This document shows positions 4,163 through 15,612 of a stretch of DNA of 32,383 bases, in pieces. Each line of letters opens with the position of its first letter. Within the stretch, counting starts at the first letter, position 1. The DNA comes from a virus: IMG/VR virus record IMGVR_UViG_3300049856_000274, positions 1 to 32,383 of that record; one strand, 5' to 3'. The position numbers and the translations under genes are program-made. The notes beneath the pieces were generated by a model, which did not search any database, was not told the DNA's origin, and saw only the letters and a program-made list of their open reading frames with translations.

Positions 4163-4632
4163 AGACGCGAAAGACCATGGCGGAAAAAATGGACATCTCC
4201 ATTGATGTTTTTCAGAGAGACATCAATGATGGAATGCCATGCACCGCATCCTTGTGCATGGAAAAGGTGGCGATCGCGCGGGCACTGGACAAGATTGATC
4301 CAGGAGCCGCAGCAAGAGGTCAGCACCACAAGGTGCGGGTTGATGCCGGCCACATCAAGTTCAACTACCAGGGCTATCGGTGGAAGGCGGAAACGCCGAA
4401 GGTTGCCCGCCGCGCCCTTATCATGTTCGACAACAAGAAGACGAGGCCGGAAGTCAAGCCGCACAGCTACAGACTGACGGCGATCAAGGGGACCAAGATC
4501 AAAAAAGGTCAGCCCCTGTCGGCTGAGCGGAAGAAGCAAATTCTTCAGGCACAGCGCGATCGGCAGAAGGCCGGGCGCAATCGCTACATGCTCAGGCAAC
4601 GCCTGGTCGGGTTCGATCTTGGGCACGGCTGA
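4156..4632 (+). CDS. Hypothetical basic protein, 158 aa
   Basis: The frame is open from 4039, but the ATG at 4156 overlapping the upstream stop is the natural start (MVKTRKTMAEKMDISIDVFQ...). The protein is strongly basic (many Lys and Arg), with a strand-rich centre (HKVRVDAGHIKFNYQGYRW) and a long basic C-terminal helix (LSAERKKQILQAQRDRQKAG). That composition suggests nucleic acid binding. No family recognised. It lies directly upstream of the replication initiator-like gene. Confidence 0.6.
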   Translation: MVKTRKTMAEKMDISIDVFQRDINDGMPCTASLCMEKVAIARALDKIDPGAAARGQHHKVRVDAGHIKFNYQGYRWKAETPKVARRALIMFDNKKTRPEVKPHSYRLTAIKGTKIKKGQPLSAERKKQILQAQRDRQKAGRNRYMLRQRLVGFDLGHG

Positions 4633-4649
4633 CGAAGGCAACGTGATGC

Positions 4650-5468
4650 ATGAGCGACGACACACTGATCGAGGACCTCGTGCGCGCCGGCTTGTCGGCC
4701 GATCTGATCGGACGTGTCGTGCGTGTCCTCATTGTCCACGGAAGTCACAGGACATCCGCGGAACAGGTGGACGCGAGGCGGATGCGGGATCGTGAGCGTA
4801 AACGTGTAGAACGAGAAGAGTTGCGTAAAATCAAAGAGTTGGCGAAAGCAAACGATGTCGCCAGCAAAAATGATGTTCCGCGGACATCCGCGGACAGCGA
4901 TGTTGTATGCACTAATGTAGTAAGTAAGATAGTAGCTTCCAGTAAAGGAAGTGAAGTAAGTAAGAAAGCAAGTACTGAACTTAACAGTACTGAACTACCT
5001 AATACTGTACATCGGGCGCGCGCGCGAGGAACTCGAATTTCTACTGACTGGCGGCCGTCCGCGGACGCGGTGATGTGGTGCCGGTCGTATGGGGTCGTCG
5101 GCGCTCAGCTTGAGACTCTGATCTCTGAATTCATCGACTACTGGGTGGCCATACCTGGTCAGCGCGGATGCAAGATGGGCGTGCTTGGTTGGGACTCTAC
5201 GTTCCGCAATCGTGTTCGGCAGAAGGTGCCAACACCGCGGCCGCTAGCCGCGACCGAGCCGACTTTTAAGACACCACCACCAGAATTTCTGGAACGGGAG
5301 CGGCAGCGCAATGCAGCAAAAGGAACGAGCGTTCGGAACGATGCCGTTGTCAGCAACAACGGGGCCGGTCACGCGCCAGAACTATGCCTTTCGGGCGGAG
5401 GGGTACTGCGCAAGGAAGTCACCGGAACGCAAGGGGATGCACCCGACGATCACCATGCAAAGCGATGA
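4650..5468 (+). CDS. Phage replication initiator-like protein (O/DnaT type), 272 aa
   Basis: The N-terminal third is a charged helical region (MRDRERKRVEREELRKIKEL, about residues 45-65). The centre is a Ser/Thr/Asn-rich linker with STELNSTEL (about residues 107-117). The C-terminal domain (about residues 125-195) carries ARGTRISTDWRPSADAVMW, then EFIDYWVAIPG, CKMGVLGWDSTFRNRVR. This follows the 'RGTRL..DW.PS ... F.DYW.A.PG ... K.DW..T.RNWVR' pattern of phage replication proteins with a DnaT-like C-terminal domain, which recruit helicase loaders. The gene itself contains a cluster of repeats that may be the origin, as in lambda O. The Ser-rich, AT-richer linker stands out from the GC-rich flanks. 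Confidence 0.7.
   Translation: MSDDTLIEDLVRAGLSADLIGRVVRVLIVHGSHRTSAEQVDARRMRDRERKRVEREELRKIKELAKANDVASKNDVPRTSADSDVVCTNVVSKIVASSKGSEVSKKASTELNSTELPNTVHRARARGTRISTDWRPSADAVMWCRSYGVVGAQLETLISEFIDYWVAIPGQRGCKMGVLGWDSTFRNRVRQKVPTPRPLAATEPTFKTPPPEFLERERQRNAAKGTSVRNDAVVSNNGAGHAPELCLSGGGVLRKEVTGTQGDAPDDHHAKR
4755..5065. repeat. Repeat cluster inside the replication gene; candidate origin
   Basis: The palindrome TCCGCGGA occurs at 4755-4762, 4877-4884, 4887-4894 and 5058-5065; I noticed it nowhere else in the window. The middle two form a tandem of TCCGCGGACA. Between the last two sites lies an AT-rich stretch with two AGTAAGTAAGA copies (4919-4929, 4955-4965) and two AGTACTGAACT copies (4971-4981, 4986-4996). 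Iterons next to an AT-rich stretch inside an initiator gene is the lambda ori layout. Activity as an origin is inferred. Confidence 0.5.
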
Positions 5469-5631
5469 GCTTGGATTGTGGTTGCGATATTTTGACTATC
5501 TCGGTCGGCGGCCATGGGCGTTCCAGCGCATGTTGGACTGGCCGGACGCCGGTCATTACTTCACGGTGCCGGAGGAAAAGCCAGAGTGGTTCGATCCTGA
5601 TTACGCAGACAGGCTGGCGAGGACGGCATGA
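5437..5631 (+). CDS. Hypothetical protein, 64 aa
   Basis: The frame is open from 5311 (106 aa), but that start would overlap the replication gene by 158 bases. I place the start at 5437 (MHPTITMQSDELGLWLRYFD...), overlapping by 32 bases; 5455 is also possible. None of the three has a well-spaced ribosome binding site (AAGGGG directly abuts 5437). The product has many aromatics (RYFDYLGRRPWAFQRMLDW, PEWFDPDY) and no known motif. Start uncertain; the C-terminal part is probably real because the next gene overlaps its stop with ATGA. Confidence 0.5.
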   Translation: MHPTITMQSDELGLWLRYFDYLGRRPWAFQRMLDWPDAGHYFTVPEEKPEWFDPDYADRLARTA

Positions 5632-5837
5632 ACGTTCACGTCAACAGTGCCAGTACCGGCCGTGTGAGCAACGCCGGGCGCAACATGGTGCACCTGTTCA
5701 GCCGATCGCCAGCCTACCCGGACCTGCTGGCGCGTGCGCGGCGCGAGGACAGGCGGCTGAGCCTCATCGAGCGGGAGACGCAGTCGATCTGGGTTGCCGT
5801 GGAATGGCTGAATGAATGGAAGCAGGAGAAACGTTGA
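5628..5837 (+). CDS. Hypothetical protein, 69 aa
   Basis: ATG at 5628 overlaps the preceding stop, and the stop at 5835-5837 overlaps the next start. The product (MNVHVNSASTGRVSNAGRNM...) has a polar N-terminus and an Arg/Glu-rich helical C-terminal half ending in VAVEWLNEWKQEKR. No family recognised. The tight coupling at both ends is the main support. Confidence 0.6.
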   Translation: MNVHVNSASTGRVSNAGRNMVHLFSRSPAYPDLLARARREDRRLSLIERETQSIWVAVEWLNEWKQEKR

Positions 5838-6175
5838 TGACCATGACCCGCCGATCACTGTTTGGCGGCTGTGCCGCCGGGCTCGCACTGCTGCCGGTGC
5901 TGCCAACGCTAATACCGGCCAAGCGTTCGTTTCTCGCGCCTGGTCACATCAGTGCCGACCCGTGCCTGCTCGTCGACAGCCCGACTGCCCTTAATGAAGG
6001 GTGTCGTAAGCTCATGCGTGCTGATCATGTGATCTGCTGGCAGATCGCACAGGATCGCGCATGGTGTGGCTGCAATCGCGAGGAGCGGCGCAATGCCGAC
6101 TGTCATTGCTGGCAGCGGACTGAATCCAATCGCCCAGAAATGACCGCTGGTGCTGAAAACGGATCAGGTGGGTGA
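5837..6175 (+). CDS. Small protein with a twin-arginine (Tat) type signal, 112 aa
   Basis: The start at 5837 is chosen for its overlap with the upstream stop; an in-frame ATG at 5816 exists. The N-terminus MTMTRRSLFGGCAAGLALLP has paired arginines, RRSLF, then a hydrophobic core to about residue 26, which fits a Tat export signal; a Cys at residue 12 gives a marginal lipobox. The mature part is Cys-rich (CRKL, VICW, WCGC, CHCW), suggesting metal binding or disulfides outside the cytoplasm. A second Tat-type orphan lies at 11892-12302. Tat proteins are rare among phage replication genes. Function unknown. Confidence 0.6.
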   Translation: MTMTRRSLFGGCAAGLALLPVLPTLIPAKRSFLAPGHISADPCLLVDSPTALNEGCRKLMRADHVICWQIAQDRAWCGCNREERRNADCHCWQRTESNRPEMTAGAENGSGG

Positions 6176-6176
6176 A

Positions 6177-6653
6177 ATGACCAGCCTGGAAAATGAACGC
6201 ATGGGCGGGCTTCCTATCGAGGTCCGCGACTACGCGCAGCTTGTCCGTGCCATTCGGACCTGGATTGCCGAACTCGGGACGGCCGGGGAGACCATTGACG
6301 ACGTGGCCGGGTTGCCGCTGCGGTACACCATGAAGCTACTGGCCCCCGTGCCCGTGAAGGGCATTGGCCGCACCAGCCTGGGGCCGCTGCTGGGCGCGCT
6401 GGGGCTGAAGCTGGTGGTGGCGGTGGACCATGAGGTGCTGGCGCGAATCAGGCACAGGCTGATTCTCAAGCATCATGCTAGCCAGGGATTGCTGGCCACG
6501 GGAATGCGTAGGAAACACAAGTTTCCCAAAGGTCCTGAATTTGCCAGATTGATGCGCAGCCGACAGCTTTTGAGCCAGTCACCGCGACATCGGTCCAGCA
6601 TAGCCAGGATTGCGGCCAAGGCAAGGTGGGCGAAGGTCAGAGCCGCAAATTGA
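6177..6653 (+). CDS. Predicted HTH-type protein, 158 aa
   Basis: The start at 6177 (MTSLENERMGG...) is preceded by GGGTGAA. Residues about 17-75 (LVRAIRTWIAELGTAGETID, then DVAGLPLRYTMKLL and RTSLGPLLGALGLKLVVAVD) resemble an HTH/XRE-related domain seen in alphaproteobacterial phages, where a short helical pair with 'DD.AGLP..Y..KLL' precedes 'G..SLG.LLGALG..L'. The C-terminal half is strongly basic (RRKHKFPKGPEFARLM, IARIAAKARWAKVRAAN), consistent with DNA binding. It is the last plus-strand gene before a convergent operon, so it may be a delayed-early or late regulator; that is inference. Confidence 0.6.
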   Translation: MTSLENERMGGLPIEVRDYAQLVRAIRTWIAELGTAGETIDDVAGLPLRYTMKLLAPVPVKGIGRTSLGPLLGALGLKLVVAVDHEVLARIRHRLILKHHASQGLLATGMRRKHKFPKGPEFARLMRSRQLLSQSPRHRSSIARIAAKARWAKVRAAN

Positions 6654-6763
6654 TTGATGATGCCAGGCGAAATGCAGCAGTCTGACAGCCGGGCTAGAAA
6701 CCTGAATTCCGTTGAATTCATTTGCAGTTCCTGCCGCAGCCGCGCCCTCCCCCCTAACTGGCA

Positions 6764-6988
6764 CTAGGCTGATTCTTCGGGCAATCCGTGCGCGAGGTAC
6801 ATGGCCAGGAGCAGGGCGATCGGCACCGGCACGTCCTGGTCACCAGCGGACAGGCGCGCGAGTTGCCGGCAGGACAGGCCAAGGGCGGCTTGGGTTTCCT
6901 GGCCGTACGGGCGCAGGTTGAGCTCCCGCAGGGCTTTGAGGTAGGCTGTACGGGTCACGGTGTGTGCTCCATGGGGCCTCACGGCCAT
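6764..6988 (-). CDS. Small HTH-like protein, 74 aa; last gene of the leftward operon
   Basis: An upstream start at 7030 exists, but the ATG at 6986-6988 has AGGGCGG a few bases upstream and lies beyond a strong hairpin, so it is preferred. Residues about 12-70 (RTAYLKALRELNLRPYGQET, then ALGLSCRQLARLSAGDQDVP and VPIALLLAMYLAH) match a small phage HTH family in which 'LG.S.RQ.QR..AG...VP...A.LL..Y' forms the DNA-binding core. It may regulate its own operon. That role is inferred. Confidence 0.65.
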   Translation of the reverse strand: MAVRPHGAHTVTRTAYLKALRELNLRPYGQETQAALGLSCRQLARLSAGDQDVPVPIALLLAMYLAHGLPEESA

Positions 6989-7010
6989 TGTCGAGCCGCC
7001 CTGTGATAGT

Positions 7011-7044
7011 CGAGCCCCGCCGGGCGGCATCCTGGCGGGGCTCG
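7011..7044 (-). promoter_or_regulatory. Strong hairpin between two small genes
   Basis: An 11-bp perfect stem (CGAGCCCCGCC at 7011-7021 with GGCGGGGCTCG at 7034-7044) closes a 12-base loop that on the minus strand contains AUGCC, the same pentamer found in the loops of the leaders upstream in this operon. No T-run follows on either strand, so it is not a classical intrinsic terminator. It could be a processing, attenuation or protein-binding hairpin ahead of the last gene. Confidence 0.6.
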
Positions 7045-7050
7045 CATGTG

Positions 7051-7260
7051 TCAGTCCCTAGGGTCCTTGGTGATTTTCCAGATGATATTTTCCACCTCGT
7101 CCTTGGGAATTCGGGGCGAGACGCGCAGATAGAAAAACTCATCCGGCCGATCGTCTCTGGTTGCCCTGAACCACACCTCGTGGTCCGGAGCGTTCGACTT
7201 CAGGTTCTGAACGTCCTCTTGCGAGGTGTAGCGTGGATTGCCGTCGAGTGTGATCTTCAT
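7051..7260 (-). CDS. Hypothetical protein, 69 aa
   Basis: ATG at 7258-7260 follows the conserved GTGAGGA ribosome binding site of this operon. The product (MKITLDGNPRYTSQEDVQNL...) reads as a small alpha/beta fold: strand, helix, then VWFRATRD and EFFYLRVSP strands and a final helix (IPKDEVENIIWKITK). Acidic and probably soluble. No family recognised. Confidence 0.7.
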   Translation of the reverse strand: MKITLDGNPRYTSQEDVQNLKSNAPDHEVWFRATRDDRPDEFFYLRVSPRIPKDEVENIIWKITKDPRD

Positions 7261-7340
7261 TTCAGTTCCTCACGGTTAAGAGCTCGTCAGTGCAGGTCTC
7301 ACCTGCAGACGACCAGGCATTCGCGCCTGGCCGTTTCGCC
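7261..7340 (-). promoter_or_regulatory. Structured leader repeat, copy 1 (most diverged)
   Basis: On the minus strand, directly after the TAG of the upstream gene: GGCGAAACGG, a hairpin CCAGGC/GCCTGG, a hairpin TGCAGGT/ACCTGCA, a short CTGACGAGCTC remnant where the other copies carry the AUGCC hairpin, then AACCGTGAGGA and the start codon. Same order as three other copies in the operon, lacking only the third loop. Confidence 0.7.
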
Positions 7341-7646
7341 CTAGGCTGATTTGCGCTTACGTGACGCAAATTTGCGCAGATCACTCGTGGAGTAGAGTTG
7401 CACATGGCCGCGATCGTCGCGCCATGCCTTGCCGGCTTGAACCGCCGCACTCTCTGCCTGATCGAGCGCGATTGCCGCAGTGCGATCCGCACCGTAGAGT
7501 CCTAGGCCTTGCATGTTGTCCGCAAGCGCAGCAGCCAGATCATTGAAGCGGACATTTCCGAAGCCGTTGGCGATGCACCAATCGGTTAGGGCGGACGAAG
7601 CCTTTCTGTACGTATTGCTCGCCCGTTCGACTGTCTTTCGATCCAT
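7341..7646 (-). CDS. Hypothetical protein, 101 aa
   Basis: A longer frame reaches 7724, but it would run through the structured leader. The ATG at 7644-7646 follows GTGAGGA by seven bases, as in the sister genes. The product (MDRKTVERASNTYRKASSAL...) is helical, with Ala-rich amphipathic segments (LAAALADNMQGLGLYGADRT, IALDQAESAAVQAGKAW) and a basic end RKFASRKRKSA. No family recognised. The basic tail could contact nucleic acid. Confidence 0.7.
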   Translation of the reverse strand: MDRKTVERASNTYRKASSALTDWCIANGFGNVRFNDLAAALADNMQGLGLYGADRTAAIALDQAESAAVQAGKAWRDDRGHVQLYSTSDLRKFASRKRKSA

Positions 7647-7734
7647 TGTCCGTTCCTCACGGTTGCTGATGGGCATCATCAGAGGCAGCCTTACTGCCTG
7701 ACGTGAACGCATTTGCGCGTCCACGTTTCGCCCT
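7647..7734 (-). promoter_or_regulatory. Structured leader repeat, copy 2
   Basis: Minus strand order: GGGCGAAACG, a long hairpin (ACGTGGACGC paired with GCGTTCACGT), a hairpin GGCAG-TAAGG-CTGCC, a hairpin CTGATG-ATGCC-CATCAG, then AACCGTGAGGA and, after seven bases, the ATG of the 101-aa gene. Here about 20 extra bases separate the upstream TAG from GGGCGAA. Confidence 0.8.
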
Positions 7735-7753
7735 GTCGGCGGCTAGCGCCGCG

Positions 7754-7897
7754 CTACAGCTTGCGCAATATCCGGTAGCTTGCCTCCGGGTAGAGCGAGA
7801 GCTTCTCCCGTGCATAGGCCGCAGCCTCTTCAGGCGTACGGAACAGCTGCCAGCACGGGACCATTGCGTTCGAGAGTTTGAAGTACAGCAGGTACAT
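7754..7897 (-). CDS. Hypothetical small protein, 47 aa
   Basis: Read directly from the minus strand: ATG at 7895-7897, TAG at 7754-7756. The product MYLLYFKLSNAMVPCWQLFR continues TPEEAAAYAREKLSLYPEAS and YRILRKL. Its start follows the operon's conserved GTGAGGA by seven bases, and it lies exactly between two leader copies, which is strong positional evidence. The pattern (two strands, a helix starting at TPEEA, a final strand) suggests a small compact alpha/beta fold. Function unknown. Confidence 0.7.
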   Translation of the reverse strand: MYLLYFKLSNAMVPCWQLFRTPEEAAAYAREKLSLYPEASYRILRKL

Positions 7898-7988
7898 GGT
7901 CGTGTCCTCACGGTTTGGATCTGATGGGCATCATCAGGCGGTGCCTTACACCGCGACAGCCAGGATGTGCTGTCCTGGCCGTTTCGCC
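7898..7988 (-). promoter_or_regulatory. Structured leader repeat, copy 3 (most complete)
   Basis: Minus strand, immediately after a TAG stop: GGCGAAACGG, hairpin CCAGGA/TCCTGG, CTGTC spacer, hairpin GCGGTG-TAAGG-CACCGC, hairpin CTGATG-ATGCC-CATCAG, then AAACCGTGAGGA before the ATG of the 47-aa gene. ACGG at the 5' side can pair with CCGT next to the ribosome binding site, closing a multi-branched junction. Confidence 0.85.
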
Positions 7989-8171
7989 CTAGGATGTGAC
8001 GGTCTCACGATAGCCGAGACCGGGATGTTTGCGGCCGAGCTCGCGCAGCACCTCGTTGTGGCTGTTGCCTTCGATCGGGGTTAGAGTTCGCACCGTTGGT
8101 TCGAAGGACCAGCTTTCTACGATCGTGCCGACTTGTGTCTTGCCGCTCCATACTGTCGTGACTACTCGCAT
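7989..8171 (-). CDS. Hypothetical protein, 60 aa
   Basis: ATG at 8169-8171, six bases after GTGAGGA. The product (MRVVTTVWSGKTQVGTIVES...) begins with beta-strand-like segments and ends with a polar helix (NEVLRELGRKHPGLGYRETV). Small and soluble by composition. No family recognised; one of the operon's leader-preceded genes. Confidence 0.7.
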   Translation of the reverse strand: MRVVTTVWSGKTQVGTIVESWSFEPTVRTLTPIEGNSHNEVLRELGRKHPGLGYRETVTS

Positions 8172-8261
8172 GATCAGTCCTCACGTTGAGTTGCTGACGG
8201 GCATCGTCAGGAGTGGCGTCACCACTCGACAACACCGCATTGGCGCGGTGCCGTTTCGCCC
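8172..8261 (-). promoter_or_regulatory. Structured leader repeat, copy 4 (with compensatory stem change)
   Basis: Minus strand, directly after a TAA stop: GGGCGAAACGG, hairpin CACCGC/GCGGTG, TTGTC spacer, hairpin GAGTGG-TGACG-CCACTC, hairpin CTGACG-ATGCC-CGTCAG, then AACGTGAGGA and the ATG. The third stem differs from copies 2 and 3 by a T-A to C-G swap on both arms while the ATGCC loop is unchanged, which is direct evidence of selection for pairing. Confidence 0.85.
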
Positions 8262-8492
8262 TTACTCGGCCGCGGCAGTGACTTGCTGTCCTGCCACGTC
8301 TGGTATTGTCACCGATGCCTCGGTGATCTCTGGTGGCCGCATCGTCACCGTGATCTTGACGATGCGGAGTGGGCTGATTGCACCGTAGCAATCGTTGTAG
8401 CGCTCGGTGGCATGGTCCATTTCCTCACTGGCGACATGGTCACCGTCGCTGTCCATCACCACGTAAACGTCGACAGTCTTGAGCTCAGTCAT
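8262..8492 (-). CDS. Hypothetical protein, 76 aa; first gene of the leftward small-gene operon
   Basis: The frame is open from 8615, but the ATG at 8490-8492 follows the conserved GTGAGGA by seven bases and lies downstream of the promoter at 8557-8585. The product (MTELKTVDVYVVMDSDGDHV...) is acidic and strand-rich, with VDVYVVMDSDGDHVASEEMD resembling a small beta-hairpin start, then a Val/Thr-rich tail (IVKITVTMRPPEITEASVTI). No family recognised. Confidence 0.7.
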   Translation of the reverse strand: MTELKTVDVYVVMDSDGDHVASEEMDHATERYNDCYGAISPLRIVKITVTMRPPEITEASVTIPDVAGQQVTAAAE

Positions 8493-8550
8493 GGGATTGT
8501 CCTCACGGTTGTGGCTGCTTGCGCAGCGGGCCGATGGCATATCGGCTTGC
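8493..8550 (-). promoter_or_regulatory. Promoter-proximal leader with related hairpins (copy 5, short form)
   Basis: At the predicted 5' end of the operon mRNA the minus strand carries CCGAT-ATGCC-ATCGG, then GCTGC-GCAA-GCAGC, then AACCGTGAGGA and the ATG of the first gene. The ATGCC loop and the ribosome binding site match the internal leaders, but the GGGCGAAACGG box and one hairpin are absent and the order of hairpins differs. Confidence 0.7.
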
Positions 8551-8556
8551 ATGCCC

Positions 8557-8585
8557 ACCATATGCCAATACGGCACTGGTGTCAA
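8557..8585 (-). promoter_or_regulatory. Sigma70-type promoter of the small-gene operon
   Basis: On the minus strand a perfect -35 TTGACA (8580-8585) and -10 TATGGT (8557-8562) are 17 bases apart. The start site would fall near 8550, giving a leader of about 58 bases before the first ATG at 8492. It drives the genes running from 8492 down to 6764. Confidence 0.75.
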
Positions 8586-8980
8586 TCCGGCATCAGTTGA
8601 TAAATAGCGATTCACGACAACGTGATTGACTGAAAATGCAAGACAATTCTGGCCACATCACGCAAATGTGATTGACATGAACATTCATTCATTGGTCCGC
8701 CACATTGTTTGCCTTAATGCCAGAGAATCATTCTCAATACGGATGCGTACAAATCCGCACAAAACCGTAAATATTTGCAAATATCCGCACAAATCCGCAC
8801 AAGCATCAATGGTGCAGTGCGTCAAGACATTGCCGAATCACCCAAAATATGATACGCGCGAGACGCAAGTCAGTGCAGTCGAGGTTCGGTCAGTGTCATT
8901 GACCGTGACATGACTGTGCGGCGATAGCCGCCGTAAAGGTCCGGTCCTGTCATTGACATGGTCAGGACAAGGACAAGAGC
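8586..8980. other. 395-bp non-coding region with repeats and dyads
   Basis: This AT-rich gap separates the leftward small-gene operon from the 49-aa plus-strand gene. It holds three ATCCGCACAA repeats, the palindrome GAGAATCATTCTC (8723-8735), a TATGAT box at 8848-8853 without a clear -35, a GCGGC/GCCGC dyad near 8920, and GTCCTG/CAGGAC arms near 8945-8970. A few short frames exist but none has support. Probably regulatory; an origin is possible. Confidence 0.5.
8753..8802 (+). repeat. Three iteron-like ATCCGCACAA repeats
   Basis: ATCCGCACAA occurs at 8753-8762, 8783-8792 and 8793-8802 (30 and 10 bp spacing), flanking an AT-rich core with the dyad ATTTGCAAAT (8773-8782). The helical-turn spacing suggests a protein-binding array: either an initiator or a regulator of the flanking divergent genes. 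Confidence 0.6.
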
Positions 8981-9130
8981 ATGACCGAACAGGACGCCAA
9001 GGATATCACCGAGCGTGTCAGGGCTGTCTTCGAGCTGACCTGGCCGTTCAAGAGCACCGCTGAACAAGCCGCGCAAGCACACGAGCGTGACATCGCCGAG
9101 CTGTCCGTACATGAACCAGCAAGAGATTAG
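8981..9130 (+). CDS. Hypothetical small protein, 49 aa
   Basis: Read directly: ATG at 8981, TAG at 9128-9130, with a purine-rich AGGACAAGAGC upstream. The product begins MTEQDAKDITERVRAVFELT, continues WPFKSTAEQAAQAHERDIAE and ends LSVHEPARD. It is acidic and almost wholly helical. Small phage regulators often look like this, but no family is recognised. It is isolated between two non-coding regions. Confidence 0.5.
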   Translation: MTEQDAKDITERVRAVFELTWPFKSTAEQAAQAHERDIAELSVHEPARD

Positions 9131-9555
9131 CTGCGACGAGCGTTATAGCTCATAAGCACGAGCATCGTCGTAACTGTTACCGATCGGTACATTGGCGGAT
9201 TATTGCCAACTCGTGCATGCCAAGAGCTAAACTGCATTAATGTTAAGATATGCAGGGTATGGTCTGGCCTGTAAAGGGCATGACTGTACAAGTACTTAGC
9301 CGCGATGTGCAACGCGATGCCGCGCGCAAGGCGTGACGTGCCAGGCCAAATAAGGGGGGGTGGGGTGGCCGGTACCCCCCAAACGATCGGCCATCCATGA
9401 AATTCACGTATTCTGAAACTTTCGCGGGACTTTTCAGGACGAGTGTTGCAATTGTACAACACTGACATTGTCCTGCCGACGGTACTTGCCGGGCTTTTGG
9501 TGACAGTTGTGCCAGTGCGTTGATTTGCCTGTAACTGTTACGCCATTTGACGGTA
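9131..9555. other. 425-bp non-coding region before the terminase genes
   Basis: Contains the palindrome GTAACTGTTAC twice (9170-9180 and 9531-9541), a G-rich/C-rich dyad from 9354 to 9379 (a G7 run, GGGG, then CCCCCC), a 22-bp palindrome with AGTGTTG/CAACACT arms around CAATTG (9442-9463), and the nonamer AGTGCGTTG (9514-9522). A frame on the minus strand (9127-9468) has no support. Position directly upstream of the small terminase gene suits a cos or pac packaging site. Confidence 0.5.
9514..9522 (+). promoter_or_regulatory. AGTGCGTTG element, copy 1 (before terminase)
   Basis: One of four exact copies of this nonamer, each found in or at the edge of a non-coding gap preceding a virion gene block. 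Here it lies 34 bases upstream of the small terminase start, with the second GTAACTGTTAC palindrome just after it. Confidence 0.45.
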
Positions 9556-10101
9556 ATGGACGATATCCCAGCTGAATATCTTGGCCCGAAGATGCTCGAG
9601 CTGCCGAACGACCGGTGGCGTCGCTTTGCGTTTTTGATGGGGCATGGCGAAACGTTTGCGTCTGACGCTGCCCGGCAGGCTGGTTTCTCGGATGCGGGGG
9701 AGGGGTGCAAAGTCCGGGCCTGCGAGATGATGCAGGACAGCCGGGTGATCGATGCGATCCGGGAGGTTGGGGGTAAGGCGTTGGTTGCATTGGCGCCGCT
9801 GGCGGTCCGGGAGGCGAGGGACATCCTGCTGGACAAGAAGCATCCGTACCGCGGCCGCATGATCGAGGCGATTTGGGACCGGGCTGGCTATGCAGCCAAA
9901 ACCGAACACAAGGTGACGGTCGAGCACACGGTCGACACGTCCGAGCTCGAAGCACTTGCCCGGCGGCTGGCACGGGAGAGTGGCATCCCGGTGCAGCGGC
10001 TGCTCGGCGGCGTAGCCGACAGGACGGACAAGGTTATAGATGGCACGGCCCAAGAAGTGAACCGTGTTTCACGTGAAACGACGGACCAGGAGTTAAAATG
10101 A
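9556..10101 (+). CDS. terS: Terminase small subunit, 181 aa
   Basis: A TTG at 9547 could extend the frame by three codons; the ATG at 9556 (MDDIPAEYLGPKM...) is preferred. Residues about 10-75 (RRFAFLMGHGETFASDAARQ, then AGFSDAGEGCKVRACEMMQD) are typical of the helix-turn-helix of small terminases that recognise the packaging site ('A...AGYS....A...A.r.l....V...I'). A central helical region (residues 75-115) fits the oligomerisation core. The C-terminus (VDTSELEALARRLARESGIP) would contact the large subunit. It directly precedes the large subunit with one small gene between them. Confidence 0.75.
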   Translation: MDDIPAEYLGPKMLELPNDRWRRFAFLMGHGETFASDAARQAGFSDAGEGCKVRACEMMQDSRVIDAIREVGGKALVALAPLAVREARDILLDKKHPYRGRMIEAIWDRAGYAAKTEHKVTVEHTVDTSELEALARRLARESGIPVQRLLGGVADRTDKVIDGTAQEVNRVSRETTDQELK

Positions 10102-10313
10102 ATCCCAGTTCACGCCAGCACCGCCCTATACGTCGGACGGAACTCAAGAAATTGTCGATTGTCCGCAATCCCGGCACCGGGCCGCTGATCGAGCGGTTGC
10201 GGGACAAGCCGATGCAGGGACCGATCGGGTTTACCCGGCCCGATCCGTGGGATCGGAGGCCCGGTGAGACCCCGGAGGAGCAATACGAGCGGCTTTGTCG
10301 TCTTGCGCCATGA
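10098..10313 (+). CDS. Hypothetical protein, 71 aa
   Basis: ATG overlaps the terS stop and its own stop overlaps the terL start (ATGA). The product (MNPSSRQHRPIRRTELKKLS...) is basic and Pro/Arg-rich, with TRPDPWDRRPGETPEEQYER near the end. No family recognised. Its place between the two terminase genes suggests a packaging-linked or translational-coupling role; that is inference. Confidence 0.6.
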   Translation: MNPSSRQHRPIRRTELKKLSIVRNPGTGPLIERLRDKPMQGPIGFTRPDPWDRRPGETPEEQYERLCRLAP

Positions 10314-11757
10314 CCATCTCTGTCCCGCTCACCCCTGCCGAGCGCCGCCGTGCGCTGGAGTTCGTGGCGTACCGGCAGAAGTACTGCCACATGGCGTATT
10401 TCATCCCGTACCCGAAGCAGGCGGTGTTTCTTATTCTCGGCAGTTCTAAGCGAGAACGCCTGTTTATGGCAGGTAACAGGTGCGGTAAAACTGAGACGGG
10501 GGCATATGAAGCAGCTTTACACGCGACTGGCGATTATCCGGGAGATTGGCGTGGTAAACGATTCGACCACCCCACCATTGGTTGGGTATGTGGTCAGACT
10601 TCGCTTGCGGTACGTGACATCTGCCAAGCCAAGCTTCTTGGCTCGCCTGGTGTCGTCAGTGCGCAAGGCACTGGGATGCTCCCGAAAGACTCGATCGTGG
10701 ATACGTCACTGGCACGTGGTGTTACCGATGCCGTTGATACTGTCCAAGTGCGGCACATCTCGGGTGGAATTTCGATCATCCGGTTCAAGTCTTACGAACA
10801 GGGCCGCGCCAAATTCCAGGGTGAGGGCCTCGACTGGATTTGGTTCGACGAGGAGCCGGACCTCGACATCTATTCGGAAGGTTTGACCCGCATCGGCGAG
10901 AAGGACGGCATTGCGTGGATGACGTTCACGCCATTGCTCGGCAGGTCTGCGGTGGTGTTGCGGTTTCTGGAGGAGCCATCGGCAGACCGCGATACTGTTA
11001 CGATGTCGATCGACGACATTCCACCGGACGGTCATATTTCAGCGGCTCAAAAAAAAAGATCATTGAAGGATATCTTCCGCATGAACGCGAGGCGCGATCG
11101 CTCGGCATCCCGTTTCTTGGCTCTGGTCGTATCTTCATTACGCCGGAACAATACCTGATCGAGCCGCCGATAGAGCACATTCCTTCTTATTGGAAGAAGC
11201 TCTGGGGTATCGACTTCGGCATCGGGCATCCGTTCGCCGCGGTGCTGATCCTGTGGGATGTCGACAACGACGTGATCCACGTTCACGAGACGGTGCGGAT
11301 GGCTGACACGCTCTCGATCGTGCAGGCCGCGGCCATGAAGAAGGTCGCGGTCGGCGTCCCGGTCGCATGGCCGCGGGACGGGACCGAGCGCGACCGCAAC
11401 ACCGGCAAGCCCCTGAGCGACGGGTACAAGAAGCACGGGCTCAAGATGCTCGACCATCACGCCACCTGGCCGGACGGGTCGGTCTCAACGGAGGCCGGCA
11501 TCGAGGAGATCGACGAGCGCGAGAAGACCGGCCGGCTCAAGTACGCGGCGCAGAAGTCGGACATCCTGGAGGAAAGACGTTTCTACCACCGCCGGGACGG
11601 GAAGATCGTGAAGATCAAGGATGATCTGCTCAGCGCTTTGAGGATTGCAATAATGTCCAAGCGTTTCGCCCGCGCGGTCCCGCTCGGTGCGGTCGACAAC
11701 CGGCCCCCGGACGAACGGGGCGGGCTGGCGGCGAATGTGGATTTTGATCTGTTCTGA
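10310..11757 (+). CDS. terL: Terminase large subunit, split by a -1 frame change
   Basis: Start ATG 10310 (MTISVPLTPAERRR...). The ATPase part holds Walker A GNRCGKT (residues 55-61) and Walker B WIWFDEE (about 176-182). The nuclease part begins after the frame change with WGIDFGIGHPFAAV (metal-binding Asp) and ends with DDLLSALRIAI (second acidic pair). In frame, the first part runs on to a stop at 11156-11158 with unrelated residues. The second part is open from 10840 and makes sense only from about 11050. Joining them at the A9 run gives QKKKIIEGYLPHEREA and a protein of 482 residues, normal for this family. The break may be programmed, an error or a real mutation. Confidence 0.85.
11049..11058 (+). 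other. A9 slippery run in terL
   Basis: Nine A residues followed by G. In the upstream frame the codons read CAA AAA AAA AGA; a -1 slip on A AAA AAA gives AAG ATC ATT and restores the conserved terminase sequence. An extra A (A10) would do the same without slippage. Confidence 0.7.
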
Positions 11758-11768
11758 GGGGAAAGCTG

Positions 11769-12056
11769 ATGACATTCGCGAAGATGATGGCCGGTATTCG
11801 CAATTGGGACGTGATGAACCACCACGTCAATGACGCATTCCCGCTCAAGGTGACATTCGAGGTCGGCAATGTTGAGCTGGCGTCTCAGCTATTACTGAGC
11901 CTCAAGGCCGAGCTCGAACCGCTCTTGATGGTGCGTGAAGGCAATACCTTGGCGATTGCTCTTGATGAGCCGTTCCGCTACATGGGCATGATTGTTGAGA
12001 TCAAGTTGCGCCCACGCGCTCCTGACAATCCGGCGCGGCAACAGCAGATCGGCTAG
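11769..12056 (+). CDS. Hypothetical protein, 95 aa
   Basis: ATG 11769 is preceded by GGGGAAAG. The sequence (MTFAKMMAGIRNWDVMNHHV...) has a strand-rich core (FPLKVTFEVGNVELASQLLL, NTLAIALDE, GMIVEIKLRPRAP). No family recognised. Its last 165 bases overlap the oppositely oriented Tat-protein gene, so one of the two C-termini may be shorter than drawn. Confidence 0.6.
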   Translation: MTFAKMMAGIRNWDVMNHHVNDAFPLKVTFEVGNVELASQLLLSLKAELEPLLMVREGNTLAIALDEPFRYMGMIVEIKLRPRAPDNPARQQQIG

Positions 12057-12302
12057 CCCGGTCCATTCTTCGATTATCTTCTGTCGCATCTCATTGAGTT
12101 CACGCAGGCTTGCCAGCGCATCCATGGCTGGCGATCGCCCGTAGACGACGAGATCGCCGGCTTCGTATGGGACCGCTGGTATCCATCCGTCGATTGGCAT
12201 GATGATTCTGCGCACCGGCATCAGATTGCCGAACGTCACGATGGCCGGGGCGGCGATCAGGCCGCTGGCGGCTGCGCCGCGCAGGAATGAGCGTCTGTCC
12301 AT
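11892..12302 (-). CDS. Tat-signal small protein, 136 aa, on the opposite strand
   Basis: Start at 12302 (MDRRSFLRGAAASGLIAAPA); ATG 12308 or 12341 would only add residues. DRRSFLRG is an almost ideal twin-arginine motif, followed by a hydrophobic core and APAIVTFGNLMPVRRI. The 'APAIV...LMPV' stretch recurs in a family of small Tat-signal proteins that I associate with alphaproteobacterial phages and prophages; their function is unknown. After about residue 82 the coding sequence is antisense to 11769-12056, and that part looks less protein-like (NNHAHVAERLIKSNRQGIAF). It is the only minus-strand gene in the virion block, which marks it as a likely moron. Confidence 0.6.
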   Translation of the reverse strand: MDRRSFLRGAAASGLIAAPAIVTFGNLMPVRRIIMPIDGWIPAVPYEAGDLVVYGRSPAMDALASLRELNEMRQKIIEEWTGLADLLLPRRIVRSAWAQLDLNNHAHVAERLIKSNRQGIAFTHHQERFELGLEAQ

Positions 12303-12577
12303 GGGCATCTTGCGGGCCGGTATCGCAGCCGGCCAGAGCAATCCTCTCCTAGCTCAACATTGACGGTTCGTCGCGTGTCTCTACCCACGCCGCCGCAAGA
12401 ATGTCCCTCCGGGACAAATCAGTCCATAGCACAGTCTTTGACTCCCTGACAGTGCGTTGCTGCACTGTCCACCCCTCCCCACCCTGACCACGCTCGAGCG
12501 GCTAAGCCGCCGCAATGGGCCCCCTCTATGCCAGGGCGGGGCGGGGAAACCCGCTCCGTTCCCTTTCGGTGACGGTC
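12303..12577. other. Non-coding gap with hairpins before the connector block
   Basis: Holds TGTCCC-TCC-GGGACA (12402-12416), GACAGTGC-GTTGCT-GCACTGTC (12448-12469) and GCGGC-TAA-GCCGC (12498-12510). None is followed by a T-run, so they are not standard terminators. The second and third elements recur at 22361-22392. Confidence 0.6.
12448..12469 (+). promoter_or_regulatory. AGTGCGTTG element, copy 2, within a hairpin
   Basis: GACAGTGCGTTGCTGCA (12448-12464) matches 22376-22392 at 16 of 17 positions. Here it lies inside an 8-bp-stem hairpin; at 22376 the pairing arm has changed, so the conserved part is the primary sequence rather than the stem. Confidence 0.5.
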
Positions 12578-12832
12578 ATGGCACTCGGCAGCGGCAATTC
12601 CTACGGCGGCGGCAGTCTTGGCGGCTACGACATGTTCGGGGCGGTCGGTGACCTGCTGGGGCAGCAGGTGGAGGGCGAGACCGACGAGATGAAGCGAAGG
12701 AAGGCATTGCTGAAGCAGATGCAGGAGGCGGTCTCGCCGCTCGGCGCCTCGTCGACGCTTGGAATGACGGGCGGCGGCGGCACACGCTCGCCATTTGGGG
12801 GGTTCGGATTCCGTGCAAGCCGTGGCGGTTGA
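12578..12832 (+). CDS. Hypothetical Gly-rich protein, 84 aa
   Basis: Start ATG 12578 (MALGSGNSYGGGSLGGYDMF); 12515 is an upstream alternative whose added residues look random. Gly/Ser-rich ends surround a helical centre (VGDLLGQQVEGETDEMKRRK, ALLKQMQEAV). Small proteins of this kind often precede connectors in podoviruses, but no function is known. The ribosome binding site is weak, and its end overlaps the next gene. Confidence 0.55.
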   Translation: MALGSGNSYGGGSLGGYDMFGAVGDLLGQQVEGETDEMKRRKALLKQMQEAVSPLGASSTLGMTGGGGTRSPFGGFGFRASRGG

Positions 12833-13289
12833 GTTCCTCGCAAGGATGTACGCCGACGAGCTGCGCGAGATGTGGCCGGCGCGAGTGATCCATGCAACCA
12901 GATACGAGCCGGTCGGGATGGTGGTGCTGTCGATGCTCGCGCATTCGTTCGACGACGCCATGCCTGTATTGCTGGAATGTGTGTTTCCCGGCTTCCGCTC
13001 TATCGCCACGCCGTTCATCTGCTCGCACGCCAAGATCGACAAGCGCGGGCGGGTCATCGCGGATGTCGTCTGGGGTGACTGGAAACCGATCTCGAAAGAT
13101 GAAGTAATCTTTCACAATCTAAAACATTTGCAAAGCCAGATGCGTAGGCTCGCCGACAAGCTCAAGCTGTCCGATGCCGATCGAATTCAACTCTTCGACT
13201 GCGCCAGGAAGTGGGTCACCGCCGACATGCGGCTCGATCCCGAGATGGACCCGCGTGACCCAGACGCCAAGCGCATGACGGTGAACTGA
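12813..13289 (+). CDS. Hypothetical protein, 158 aa, upstream of the connector
   Basis: The frame extends to a TTG at 12795; I place the start at GTG 12813, which has a GGGGGG run about a dozen bases upstream; GTG 12822 is also possible. The sequence (VQAVAVEFLARMYADELREM...) is helical at first, then strand-like (FRSIATPFICSHAKIDKRGR, VIADVVWGDWKPI), then two helices (LQSQMRRLADKLKLSDADRI, QLFDCARKWVTAD). No family recognised. It is coupled to the connector by a one-base overlap, so a head-assembly role is likely. Confidence 0.6.
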   Translation: MQAVAVEFLARMYADELREMWPARVIHATRYEPVGMVVLSMLAHSFDDAMPVLLECVFPGFRSIATPFICSHAKIDKRGRVIADVVWGDWKPISKDEVIFHNLKHLQSQMRRLADKLKLSDADRIQLFDCARKWVTADMRLDPEMDPRDPDAKRMTVN

Positions 13290-15097
13290 TGGCCACCGCG
13301 GTAGCAACCATAAGCGACCGGGCGCGCGCCGGCATCTACGCCACCAATGCGCAGATGCAAGGCTTGCCGCGTGCCGTCAGCGATGCCGAGCGCGAGGTCG
13401 TGCGCGACATCATGCAGGAGTTCAGCCAGTACGTGAACTGGCGGTCCACCTTCGCCAGTCAATGGGAGGAGGCGGCCGAGCTGATCCTGCCGACCAGCCG
13501 CAACACGTTTTTCTACCAGAACTTCTCCTGGCCGGGCCAGAAGAAGACGCAACAGCAGGTCGATGCCTCGGGCATGCTTGCGCTGCACCGGTTCGCGGCG
13601 ATCTGCGACAGCCTTTTGACCCCGCGTAACATGACGTGGCACGCGCTATCCGCCAACGACGACTACGTGATGAAGGACCGTGCAACGAGGTTGTGGTTCG
13701 AGAAGGTCACCAAGATACTCTTCAAGTTCAGGTATGCACCCAATGCAAACTTTTCCGCCCAAAACAATTCCAACTTCCAGTCTCTGGGAGCCTTTGGAAA
13801 TGCAACTATGTTTGTCGATGCTTTTGACGGTCGTGACTATGGAGGTCAGGTTGGACTGCGCTACAAAGCTGTGCCACTTGGCGAAACTTTCTACGGCGAA
13901 AACCATCAAGGCCGCGTCGACCGGATAATCCGCTGGTTTCGTATGACCGCCTACCAGGCGGTGCAGCGCTGGGGCTTTGCCAACCTCCCGGCCGGGCTCC
14001 ACTCGGCGCTCCAGCAGCACTCCCAATGGCTGTTCAACTTCCTGCATTGCGTGCGCCCGCGCCGTGATTACGATGCGCAGCGCATCGATGCGCGGGCGTT
14101 GCCGTTCGAATCTCATTACGTTTCTGTCGAAGGCCAGTGCCTGATGCAGCCGGGTGGCGGCTACCGGACATTTCCGTACTCGGTCTCGCGCTACGACCAG
14201 ACGCCGCTGGAAGTGTACGGCCGCGGCCCGGCTCAGATGGTGCTGCCATCGCTCAAGACCTTGAACGCGCAGAAACGCACGTTTCTCAAGCAGGGCCACC
14301 GCGCCGCCGATCCGGTGCTGCTCGTGGCCGACGACGGCATTATCGGCATGGACCTGCGGCCCGGCGCCGTGAACAAGGGTGGCGTCAACTCGGACGGCCG
14401 CCCGACCGTGCATATCCTGCCGACCGGCAATATCCAGGTCAACGAGAAGATGATGGACATGGAGAAAGCCATCATCAACGACGTGTTCCTGGTGACGCTG
14501 TTCCAGATCATGGTCGAATCGCCGCAGATGACCGCAACCGAGGTGGTGGAGCGCGCCAACGAGAAGGGCATTCTGCTCGCCCCCACGGTCGGAAGACAAC
14601 AGTCGGAGTATCTCGGCCCGATGATCGACCGCGAGCTCGACATCCTGTCGACATTGACCAACAACGGCGTGCCGATCCTGCCGCCGATGCCGCCACGCCT
14701 GCGCGAGGCCGGCGGCAATTACGAAGTGGAATACACTTCACCGATCTCACGTGCCCAGAAGATGCAGGAAGTGTCGGCTACCTTCCGCTGGGTCGAGCAG
14801 CTCTCCAAGCTCGCCATGGAGACGGGTGACCCGAGCATCATGGATAGATTCGATTCTGACACCGCCGCGGCCGACACCGCGCAGACGATGGGCGTGCCCG
14901 AGAGTTATGTGGCTGACGACCGGCAGGTTATTGAGAAACGTAAGGCACGGGCTGCGGCTCAGCAGCAGCAAGCCCAGATACAAGCATTACCGGCATTGGC
15001 GGCCATGAAGAAGGCTGATGCAGTCGCGGCAAAAGCAGGTCTCGGACAACAAGCTCCTGGCCAGTCCAGTCAACAACCACAGGGGCCGGTCCAATGA
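13289..15097 (+). CDS. Portal (T7-type head-tail connector), 602 aa
   Basis: Length and sequence fit the T7 gp8-like head-tail connector family. Typical stretches include WRSTFASQWEEAAELILPTS (about residues 50-70), the region after it that ends in FAAICDSLLTPRNMTWHALS, the 'NNSNFQSLGAFGNATMFVDA' segment, the clip region LYKAVPLGE-like 'RYKAVPLGETFY', and PTVGRQQSEYLGPMIDREL near residue 440. It forms the dodecameric DNA gate at the capsid vertex. The last 45 residues are Gln/Ala/Gly-rich (AAKAGLGQQAPGQSSQQPQG), and a similar tail occurs at the end of the following HNH gene. The stretch 13730-13870 is notably AT-richer than its flanks, suggesting a recombination patch. Confidence 0.9.
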   Translation: MATAVATISDRARAGIYATNAQMQGLPRAVSDAEREVVRDIMQEFSQYVNWRSTFASQWEEAAELILPTSRNTFFYQNFSWPGQKKTQQQVDASGMLALHRFAAICDSLLTPRNMTWHALSANDDYVMKDRATRLWFEKVTKILFKFRYAPNANFSAQNNSNFQSLGAFGNATMFVDAFDGRDYGGQVGLRYKAVPLGETFYGENHQGRVDRIIRWFRMTAYQAVQRWGFANLPAGLHSALQQHSQWLFNFLHCVRPRRDYDAQRIDARALPFESHYVSVEGQCLMQPGGGYRTFPYSVSRYDQTPLEVYGRGPAQMVLPSLKTLNAQKRTFLKQGHRAADPVLLVADDGIIGMDLRPGAVNKGGVNSDGRPTVHILPTGNIQVNEKMMDMEKAIINDVFLVTLFQIMVESPQMTATEVVERANEKGILLAPTVGRQQSEYLGPMIDRELDILSTLTNNGVPILPPMPPRLREAGGNYEVEYTSPISRAQKMQEVSATFRWVEQLSKLAMETGDPSIMDRFDSDTAAADTAQTMGVPESYVADDRQVIEKRKARAAAQQQQAQIQALPALAAMKKADAVAAKAGLGQQAPGQSSQQPQGPVQ

Positions 15098-15612
15098 GCA
15101 CCAATAAACTTGGTTATATGCGCGAATATTATGCCAAAAACAAAGAGCGCGTTTTGGAGTCCAATAGACGATACCGCGAACGTGATCCGGAGCGCTGGCT
15201 TGCTAGAGCCCGTGCATATCATCACGAAAATCGTGAGAAACTATCTGAACAAAAGCGCAGGCATAGAAAAGAAAATCCGGAGCTTTACCGTGAACGTTTG
15301 AGGCAAAACAAATACGGGTTATCGACTAAAGAGTTTACTGCAATGGTTGCTGCACAGGGAGGGCGTTGTGCGGTGTGCGGTGATCAACGTCCATTGGTCA
15401 TTGACCATAACCACGACACGGACGAAGTCCGCGCACTTCTTTGTAGTCCCTGCAATACGGCGATTGGTCTTTTCAAAGAAGACCCCAGGCGCATGATTGC
15501 CGCTATGGCATATCTCAGTATGCATGCCCAGGCCGCGCAGGTAAAGGCCGGGATGGTTGCGCCGGGCGGGCCGGGCGGTCAGCAACAGCAGCCGCAGGGG
15601 GCGCCGGGATGA
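15094..15612 (+). CDS. Endonuclease VII-type HNH nuclease, 172 aa, likely a homing endonuclease
   Basis: Residues 90-135 carry the T4 endonuclease VII / HNH signature: CAVCG (92-96), LVIDHNHDTDEVRALLC (101-117) with the catalytic DHNH, SPCNTAIG (118-125). Residues 1-75 are charged helical repeats (Y..N.E......RRYRE..PE). Its ATG overlaps the connector stop. Base composition is AT-richer than the flanks until about 15520, then returns to GC-rich. The C-terminal 28 residues (AQAAQVKAGMVAPGGPGGQQ...) resemble the connector's own tail. Free-standing HNH genes of this kind are usually mobile and cut phage genomes lacking them. Confidence 0.85.
   Translation: MSTNKLGYMREYYAKNKERVLESNRRYRERDPERWLARARAYHHENREKLSEQKRRHRKENPELYRERLRQNKYGLSTKEFTAMVAAQGGRCAVCGDQRPLVIDHNHDTDEVRALLCSPCNTAIGLFKEDPRRMIAAMAYLSMHAQAAQVKAGMVAPGGPGGQQQQPQGAPG

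Follow-up and report, generated by a model that had tools for sequence, protein, structure and literature searches.

Clusters of hammerhead ribozymes that flank single genes in prophages were published in 2011, together with their cleavage in vitro and in vivo (PMC3088659). Such clusters were described from Azorhizobium caulinodans, Clostridium scindens and Agrobacterium tumefaciens, where three hammerheads accompany ardA and cleavage was shown in E. coli too (PMC3088659). What bacterial and phage hammerheads do biologically has been an open question since then, and the reason for the enrichment of hammerheads and twisters near phage genes was still given as unknown in 2023 (PMC10085705). Our search of the open-access literature found no paper on hammerheads in actinobacteriophages.

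Here we analyse a window of 32,383 nucleotides (positions 1 to 32,383 of IMG/VR record IMGVR_UViG_3300049856_000274). The record represents a phage with a head-tail connector (phrog_332), a terminase and the major proteins of head and tail. The portal has its nearest match in an uncultured Caudoviricetes (52%), and more distant matches are found in Stenotrophomonas, Vibrio and Pelagibacter phages. The terminase large subunit apparently lies in two overlapping frames (10295-11158 and 10840-11757, together window positions 10295-11757), which points to a frameshift or to an error of assembly. The locus studied is a minus-strand operon of five genes, g1-g5 (76, 60, 47, 101 and 69 aa), with a predicted ribozyme at all four junctions (Table 1). 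The g1-g5 proteins are mutually unrelated, and searches of Pfam and PHROGs with these small genes gave nothing confident. No relative of g1 was found in annotated phages, nor did blastn of the operon against annotated phages return a match.

Table 1. Features of the operon and its predicted ribozymes, in the order of transcription (window coordinates).
Feature	Position	Strand	Evidence and remarks
Promoter-like TTGACA-17-TATGGT	8557..8585	-	consensus match only; TTGACA region kept in L039
5' leader of g1	8493..8550	-	hairpin GCCGAU-AUGCC-AUCGGC, then GCUGC-GCAA-GCAGC, then ACCGUGAGGA
g1, 76 aa	8262..8492	-	no confident family; L039 homologue with 54% identity, second in the L039 operon
Putative hammerhead U4, junction g1/g2	8199..8261	-	sequence; RF02276 20.6 bits; MFE structure is the hammerhead junction; covariation
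U4, 5' part	GGGC 8261-8258; GAAA 8257-8254; stem III 8253-8230; U16.1-C17 8229-8228	-	
U4, predicted cut	between 8228 and 8227	-	
U4, 3' part	stem I 8227-8211; CUGACGA 8210-8204; U 8203; GCCC 8202-8199	-	loop UGACG
U4, tail CGUCA	8199-8195	-	able to pair with loop I
g2, 60 aa	7989..8171	-	no family
Putative hammerhead U3, junction g2/g3	7926..7989	-	sequence; RF02276 20.5 bits; covariation
U3, parts	predicted cut 7955/7954; stem I 7954-7938; CUGAUGA 7937-7931; GCCC 7929-7926	-	loop UAAGG
g3, 47 aa	7754..7897	-	no family
Putative hammerhead U2, junction g3/g4	7671..7733	-	sequence; covariation; MFE structure is the hammerhead junction
U2, parts	predicted cut 7700/7699; stem I 7699-7683; CUGAUGA 7682-7676; GCCC 7674-7671	-	
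g4, 101 aa	7341..7646	-	no confident family; no IMG/VR relative found
Putative hammerhead U1, junction g4/g5	7280..7341	-	RF02276 28.9 bits
U1, parts	predicted cut 7308/7307; stem I 7307-7291; CUGACGA 7290-7284; GCUC 7283-7280	-	loop UGAGA
g5, 69 aa	7051..7260	-	no family; no IMG/VR relative found
Strong hairpin 3' of g5	7011..7044	-	kept in L039; without T tract

All four units read on the minus strand as GGGC-GAAA-stem III hairpin-GUC^-stem I hairpin-CUGANGA-(U)GCCC, with GCUC at the end of U1. Type II hammerheads have the same order, namely the 3' strand of stem II, GAAA, stem III, the cleavage triplet, stem I, CUGANGA and the 5' strand of stem II. The residues of the catalytic core are intact in four of four copies (GAAA, CUGAUGA or CUGACGA, and GUC), including A15.1-U16.1 and the NUH triplet. 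Folding and covariation place three stems around this core, of which I and III are closed by loops and II is open, as in the type II permutation; stem II is formed by GGGC paired with GCCC, with one G-U pair in U1. The stem I loops are UAAGG in U2 and U3, UGAGA in U1 and UGACG in U4. The first-pass annotation had recognized four repeated minus-strand units at these junctions, and this reading stands; the unit boundaries shift, since the true start is the GGGC, which lies at or immediately past the stop codon in U1, U3 and U4 and 20 nt past the g3 stop in U2. In U1 and U3 the first G of the unit is the G of the upstream stop codon TAG.

The same annotation knew no described RNA family with this layout, which is contradicted by sub-threshold matches to RF02276 (Hammerhead_II) together with the presence of every core residue. 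At a relaxed threshold RF02276 was the sole family to appear, matching U1 (28.9 bits, E 0.0027 in 1.8 kb), U4 (20.6) and U3 (20.5), and GAAA, GUC and CUGANGA of these three copies were aligned in register with the model core. U2 gave no RF02276 match even at this threshold, and when the whole window was scanned with relaxed settings only U1 was left (E 0.048). At the gathering score Rfam has zero matches in the window, the RF02276 cut-off being 37 bits and the best copy reaching 28.9; this score is a curation threshold and not a defining property of type II hammerheads. None of the other Rfam families (4227 searched) matched the window at E up to 3, and a tRNA/tmRNA search found none. The minimum free energy structure calculated by RNAfold is a complete three-way hammerhead junction for U1, U2 and U4 and for three of the four copies in the related contig L039. 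As this locus shows, phage hammerheads can be missed by the Rfam cut-offs although their cores are intact.

Compensatory changes in the stems argue in the same direction. The first-pass annotation had noticed that stem sequences differ between copies while pairing is kept; this holds for its hairpins 1 and 2, which correspond to stems III and I, respectively. In an alignment of nine copies (U1-U4, four from L039 and one from contig L142) the three-stem structure has two-sided changes in 12 of 22 pairs and a covariation score of 0.652 vs 0.221 after shuffling, which was equalled in 0 of 500 shuffles. Pair-forming cells amount to 92.4% vs 71.1% in shuffled alignments, and a shift of the pairing partners by 1-3 columns abolishes the covariation signal.

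As a check, the earlier annotation had proposed a covariance model built from the units, and we built one from the nine copies. The window copies, being training members, scored 69-89 bits and the next window match 13 bits. The search gave 111 matches with E < 0.05 from 100 sources; the 106 distinct ones show two-sided changes at 20 of the 22 pairs, with a covariation of 0.671 vs 0.130 shuffled in an alignment that was fitted to the model. These loci were fetched by a pattern with fixed core letters, so that only stems I and III count as independent evidence. When one core base of the pattern was altered (GAAA to CAAA), both stems, each with net pairs >= 5, were present in 0 of 50 loci, vs 37 of 119 with the intact core. 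A scan of genome contigs yielded 14 pattern matches, among which only L142 has stems; the remaining 13, lacking them, were discarded as chance matches.

Taken by themselves, the units are almost certainly type II hammerhead ribozymes and not a new family of leaders. For the joint reading, that they are hammerheads and that processing would be their activity, we estimate a probability of about 0.9; the finding that four of 18 consensus hammerheads were inactive in vitro (PMC3088659) counts against it.

On this reading, a transcript from the promoter-like site at 8557-8585 would cut itself after GUC at 8228, 7955, 7700 and 7308. The upstream mRNA would then end with the stem III hairpin and a 2',3'-cyclic phosphate, while the downstream mRNA would carry its 5'-OH immediately at the stem I hairpin, with the (A)CGUGAGGA ribosome-binding site coming next. 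The outcome would be nearly monocistronic mRNAs with structured ends, so that stability and translation of each gene might become independent of its neighbours. In bacterial mRNA decay, structured ends and a 5'-OH are expected to hinder exonucleases and the 5'-end-dependent RNase E, and we somewhat favour the stabilisation of single-gene mRNAs as the benefit to the phage. Moreover, translation probably tunes cleavage, because three of the ribozymes begin at a stop codon and a ribosome that finishes the upstream gene would there cover GGGCGAAAC and delay the cut; heavy upstream translation would lead to later cutting. The earlier proposal that the repeats guide processing between cistrons was right in kind, except that the RNA itself would do the cutting, whereas the binding of a phage protein or a small RNA found no support.

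The first-pass annotation had built its definition of the units on a third hairpin whose AUGCC loop is constant, and had noted the absence of this hairpin from copy 1. The absence is real (U1, and also the L039 copy d, lack hairpin 3), but the hairpin had to be given up as a defining element: its covariation amounts to one two-sided change, a C-G for a U-A in U4 only, which 61 of 500 shuffles equal. Within the units, AUGCC consists of the last A of CUGANGA, the bulged U and the GCC of stem II that pairs back to the 5' GGGC. Hairpin 3 arises where the tail CNUCAG is complementary to the core CUGANG, as in U2, U3, U4, copies a and b of L039, and L142.

This tail lends itself to another reading of genuine ribozymes, as mainly a brake or timer, whose cut ends would speed decay or whose balance between the hammerhead and hairpin 3, the latter hiding the core CUGAUG, would switch cleavage with translation or conditions. 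Apart from the tail-core pairing in U2, U3, U4 and L039 a and b, with the C-G pair that replaces U-A in U4, such a balance is suggested by the energies of the two folds, which, with stem II alone released, lie within about 0.5 kcal/mol of each other in U2, L039a and L039b. In L039a hairpin 3 has a slight energetic advantage over the hammerhead, and in U3 its advantage is 0.5 kcal/mol with stem II alone released and 2.3 kcal/mol for the overall MFE. Against this reading stand a hairpin-3 covariation that does not exceed that of shuffles and the lack of the hairpin in U1 and L039d; in addition, the full pattern with the CNUCAG tail was matched among viral contigs only by L039 beyond the window, L142 also bearing the tail. 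We consider a brake or timer unlikely as the main function.

In our own reading hairpin 3 is, at most, an alternative or post-cleavage fold. In the calculations the isolated 3' cleavage products of U2-U4 fold as stem I plus hairpin 3; after the cut, the 3' product of U2, U3 and U4 might refold its core in this way, preventing re-ligation.

The tails of U4 and L142 can instead form 5 bp with loop I (UGACG/CGUCA and UGAUG/CAUCA), which is a known contact of type II hammerheads. U1 has a similar contact of 5 bp including a G-U pair (UGAGA/UCUUA), and in U2 and U3, with their UAAGG loop, the contact is poor. Over the nine copies it is not significant, and the mean Watson-Crick run in 85 copies is 3.61 vs 3.10 +/- 0.08. 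We dropped the contact as a universal feature of the units, as U2 and U3 do not support it. The loop I-tail contact is common in type II hammerheads and not universal; the pseudoknot is used by about 40% of all hammerheads (PMC3088659).

The IMG/VR contig L039 (30,678 bp) carries a syntenic operon with four hammerheads, which match RF02276 with E values of 1.2e-5 to 9e-4. Between the window and L039 the ribozymes are 79-89% identical in DNA, the flanks are also shared and the g1 proteins are 54% identical; BLASTP found no homologues of g2-g5 in the L039 operon, and the best-matching ribozymes of the two stand in different order. With the ribozymes shared and g2-g5 lacking homologues in the L039 operon, the intervening genes seem to have been swapped. 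Tandem duplication of whole leader-gene cassettes, as suggested earlier, was rejected: relatedness among the ribozymes is not matched by homology among the g1-g5 proteins. It could be argued that the units are mainly recombination joints, i.e. conserved border DNA for swaps of small genes by homologous recombination, with cleavage as a secondary or incidental property. The differing ribozyme order and the restriction of sharing to ribozymes, flanks and g1 would fit this, as would a homologous 70-aa gene of Streptomyces phages that is flanked by different ribozymes. A mere joint would not keep compensatory stems or all catalytic residues, and exchange is perhaps a consequence and not the function; we regard this explanation as improbable, and more so than the brake or timer.

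The two hairpins outside the junctions deserve separate mention. The 5' leader of g1 had been taken for a short form of the unit, and the hairpin at 7011-7044 had been associated with the units by the AUGCC in its loop. Neither has GAAA or CUGANGA cores or is a covariance-model match; the leader was rejected as a fifth ribozyme, and both are separate hairpins. The leader in L039 also forms these two hairpins, from other stem sequences, the AUGCC loop of the first and the GCAA loop of the second being kept in the window (8500-8550) and in L039 (12140-12180). The hairpin at 7011-7044 probably stabilises the operon mRNA at its 3' end. It is followed by a 64-aa protein (6767-6958) that looks, by eye, like a small DNA-binding protein and has an L039 relative with 94% identity. 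A new family of translation leaders or protein-binding RNAs with a fixed AUGCC loop, to which the recurrence of that loop in the leader hairpins of the window and L039 on differing stems might point, is very improbable, given that core and stem II of the hammerhead account for AUGCC in the four units, that hairpin 3 is missing in copy 1 and lacks significant covariation, and that there is no protein candidate.

Ribozyme-punctuated operons are widespread, the arrangement recurring in related as well as unrelated phages. Of the 83 structurally checked copies in phage contigs, 61% follow a stop codon by no more than 10 nt (8.7% of random positions do so); for 66%, a stop and an SD-preceded start both fall inside 60 nt (5.7% of random positions). 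RF02276 searches over whole records located three phages with 17, 12 and 9 copies, each set lying in a single region. The densest region (L194, positions 4500-15500 of the IMG/VR contig of L123) holds 17 type II hammerheads in 8.5 kb on one strand, with a ribozyme at 16 of 18 junctions in a simple gene map. The regions with 9 and 12 copies are similar to cultured Arquatrovirinae phages of Streptomyces, where nine hammerheads of phage R4 (NC_019414.1) and six of Pablito (OK412919.1) exceed the gathering score. A generalization that we hold to be less likely than not is that in some phages a hammerhead at nearly every junction of an accessory operon, with as many as 17 in one operon, would split the transcript into single-gene, hairpin-ended mRNAs and at the same time serve as a joint for gene exchange, and that in the phage group of the window a tail arm would switch the core off after cutting.

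In the R4 region 39000-51071 (L198), the annotated mini-genes gp60.1, gp67.1 and gp75.1 overlie hammerheads above the cut-off (2777-2841, 5145-5209 and 8097-8161 of L198). They are probably not genes, and some annotated phage mini-ORFs would then be ribozymes. The annotated start of R4 gp72, an OCR-like antirestriction gene (L198:6303-6833), spans the hammerhead at 6748-6813, and an ATG lies just past the ribozyme; an antirestriction gene directly behind a hammerhead is reminiscent of ardA (PMC3088659). Aminoglycosides, which are Streptomyces products, bind hammerhead ribozymes, as cited in PMC9239200, and block an early phage step; one idea would be that hammerhead-rich Streptomyces phages are specially sensitive to them.

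Junction placement far above chance and the persistence of the ribozymes while the genes between them are replaced argue for a real role in mRNA processing. The nine copies above the cut-off in R4 make this role testable in a classical, cultured Streptomyces phage. Clustered hammerheads of phages and prophages were already known, and the value of the present findings for specialists may lie in the dense, punctuated operons and in the gene replacement between conserved ribozymes.

Cutting at gene junctions has a counterpart in the early region of phage T7, whose transcript is cut between the genes at RNase III sites by a protein enzyme of the host. Both there and, as proposed, in the window the result is mRNAs with hairpin ends; in the window, however, the RNA would cut itself and leave a cyclic phosphate and a 5'-OH, whereas T7 uses the host enzyme. 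The HDV-like theta ribozymes of gut phages are likewise small self-cleaving phage ribozymes for RNA processing, but they belong to another ribozyme class and were proposed to act on tRNA 3' trailers (PMC10879173). With the type II hammerheads of RF02276 and PMC3088659, the window units share the core, the stem order, the GUC site and the intergenic location in phages or prophages, as well as a 1-nt bulged U ahead of stem II in most copies and the loop I-tail contact in U4 and U1. They differ in falling below the Rfam cut-off, in a stem II of 4 bp and not 2 bp, in the UAAGG loop of U2 and U3 and in having an additional tail arm, CNUCAG, which is complementary to the core. As in the prophage clusters, several sense-strand hammerheads lie among small phage genes, for which processing to single-gene mRNAs was proposed (PMC3088659); in contrast to these clusters, the window operon has one at all four junctions of its five genes, and other phage contigs, with 9-17 hammerheads per operon, are denser than the triple named there.
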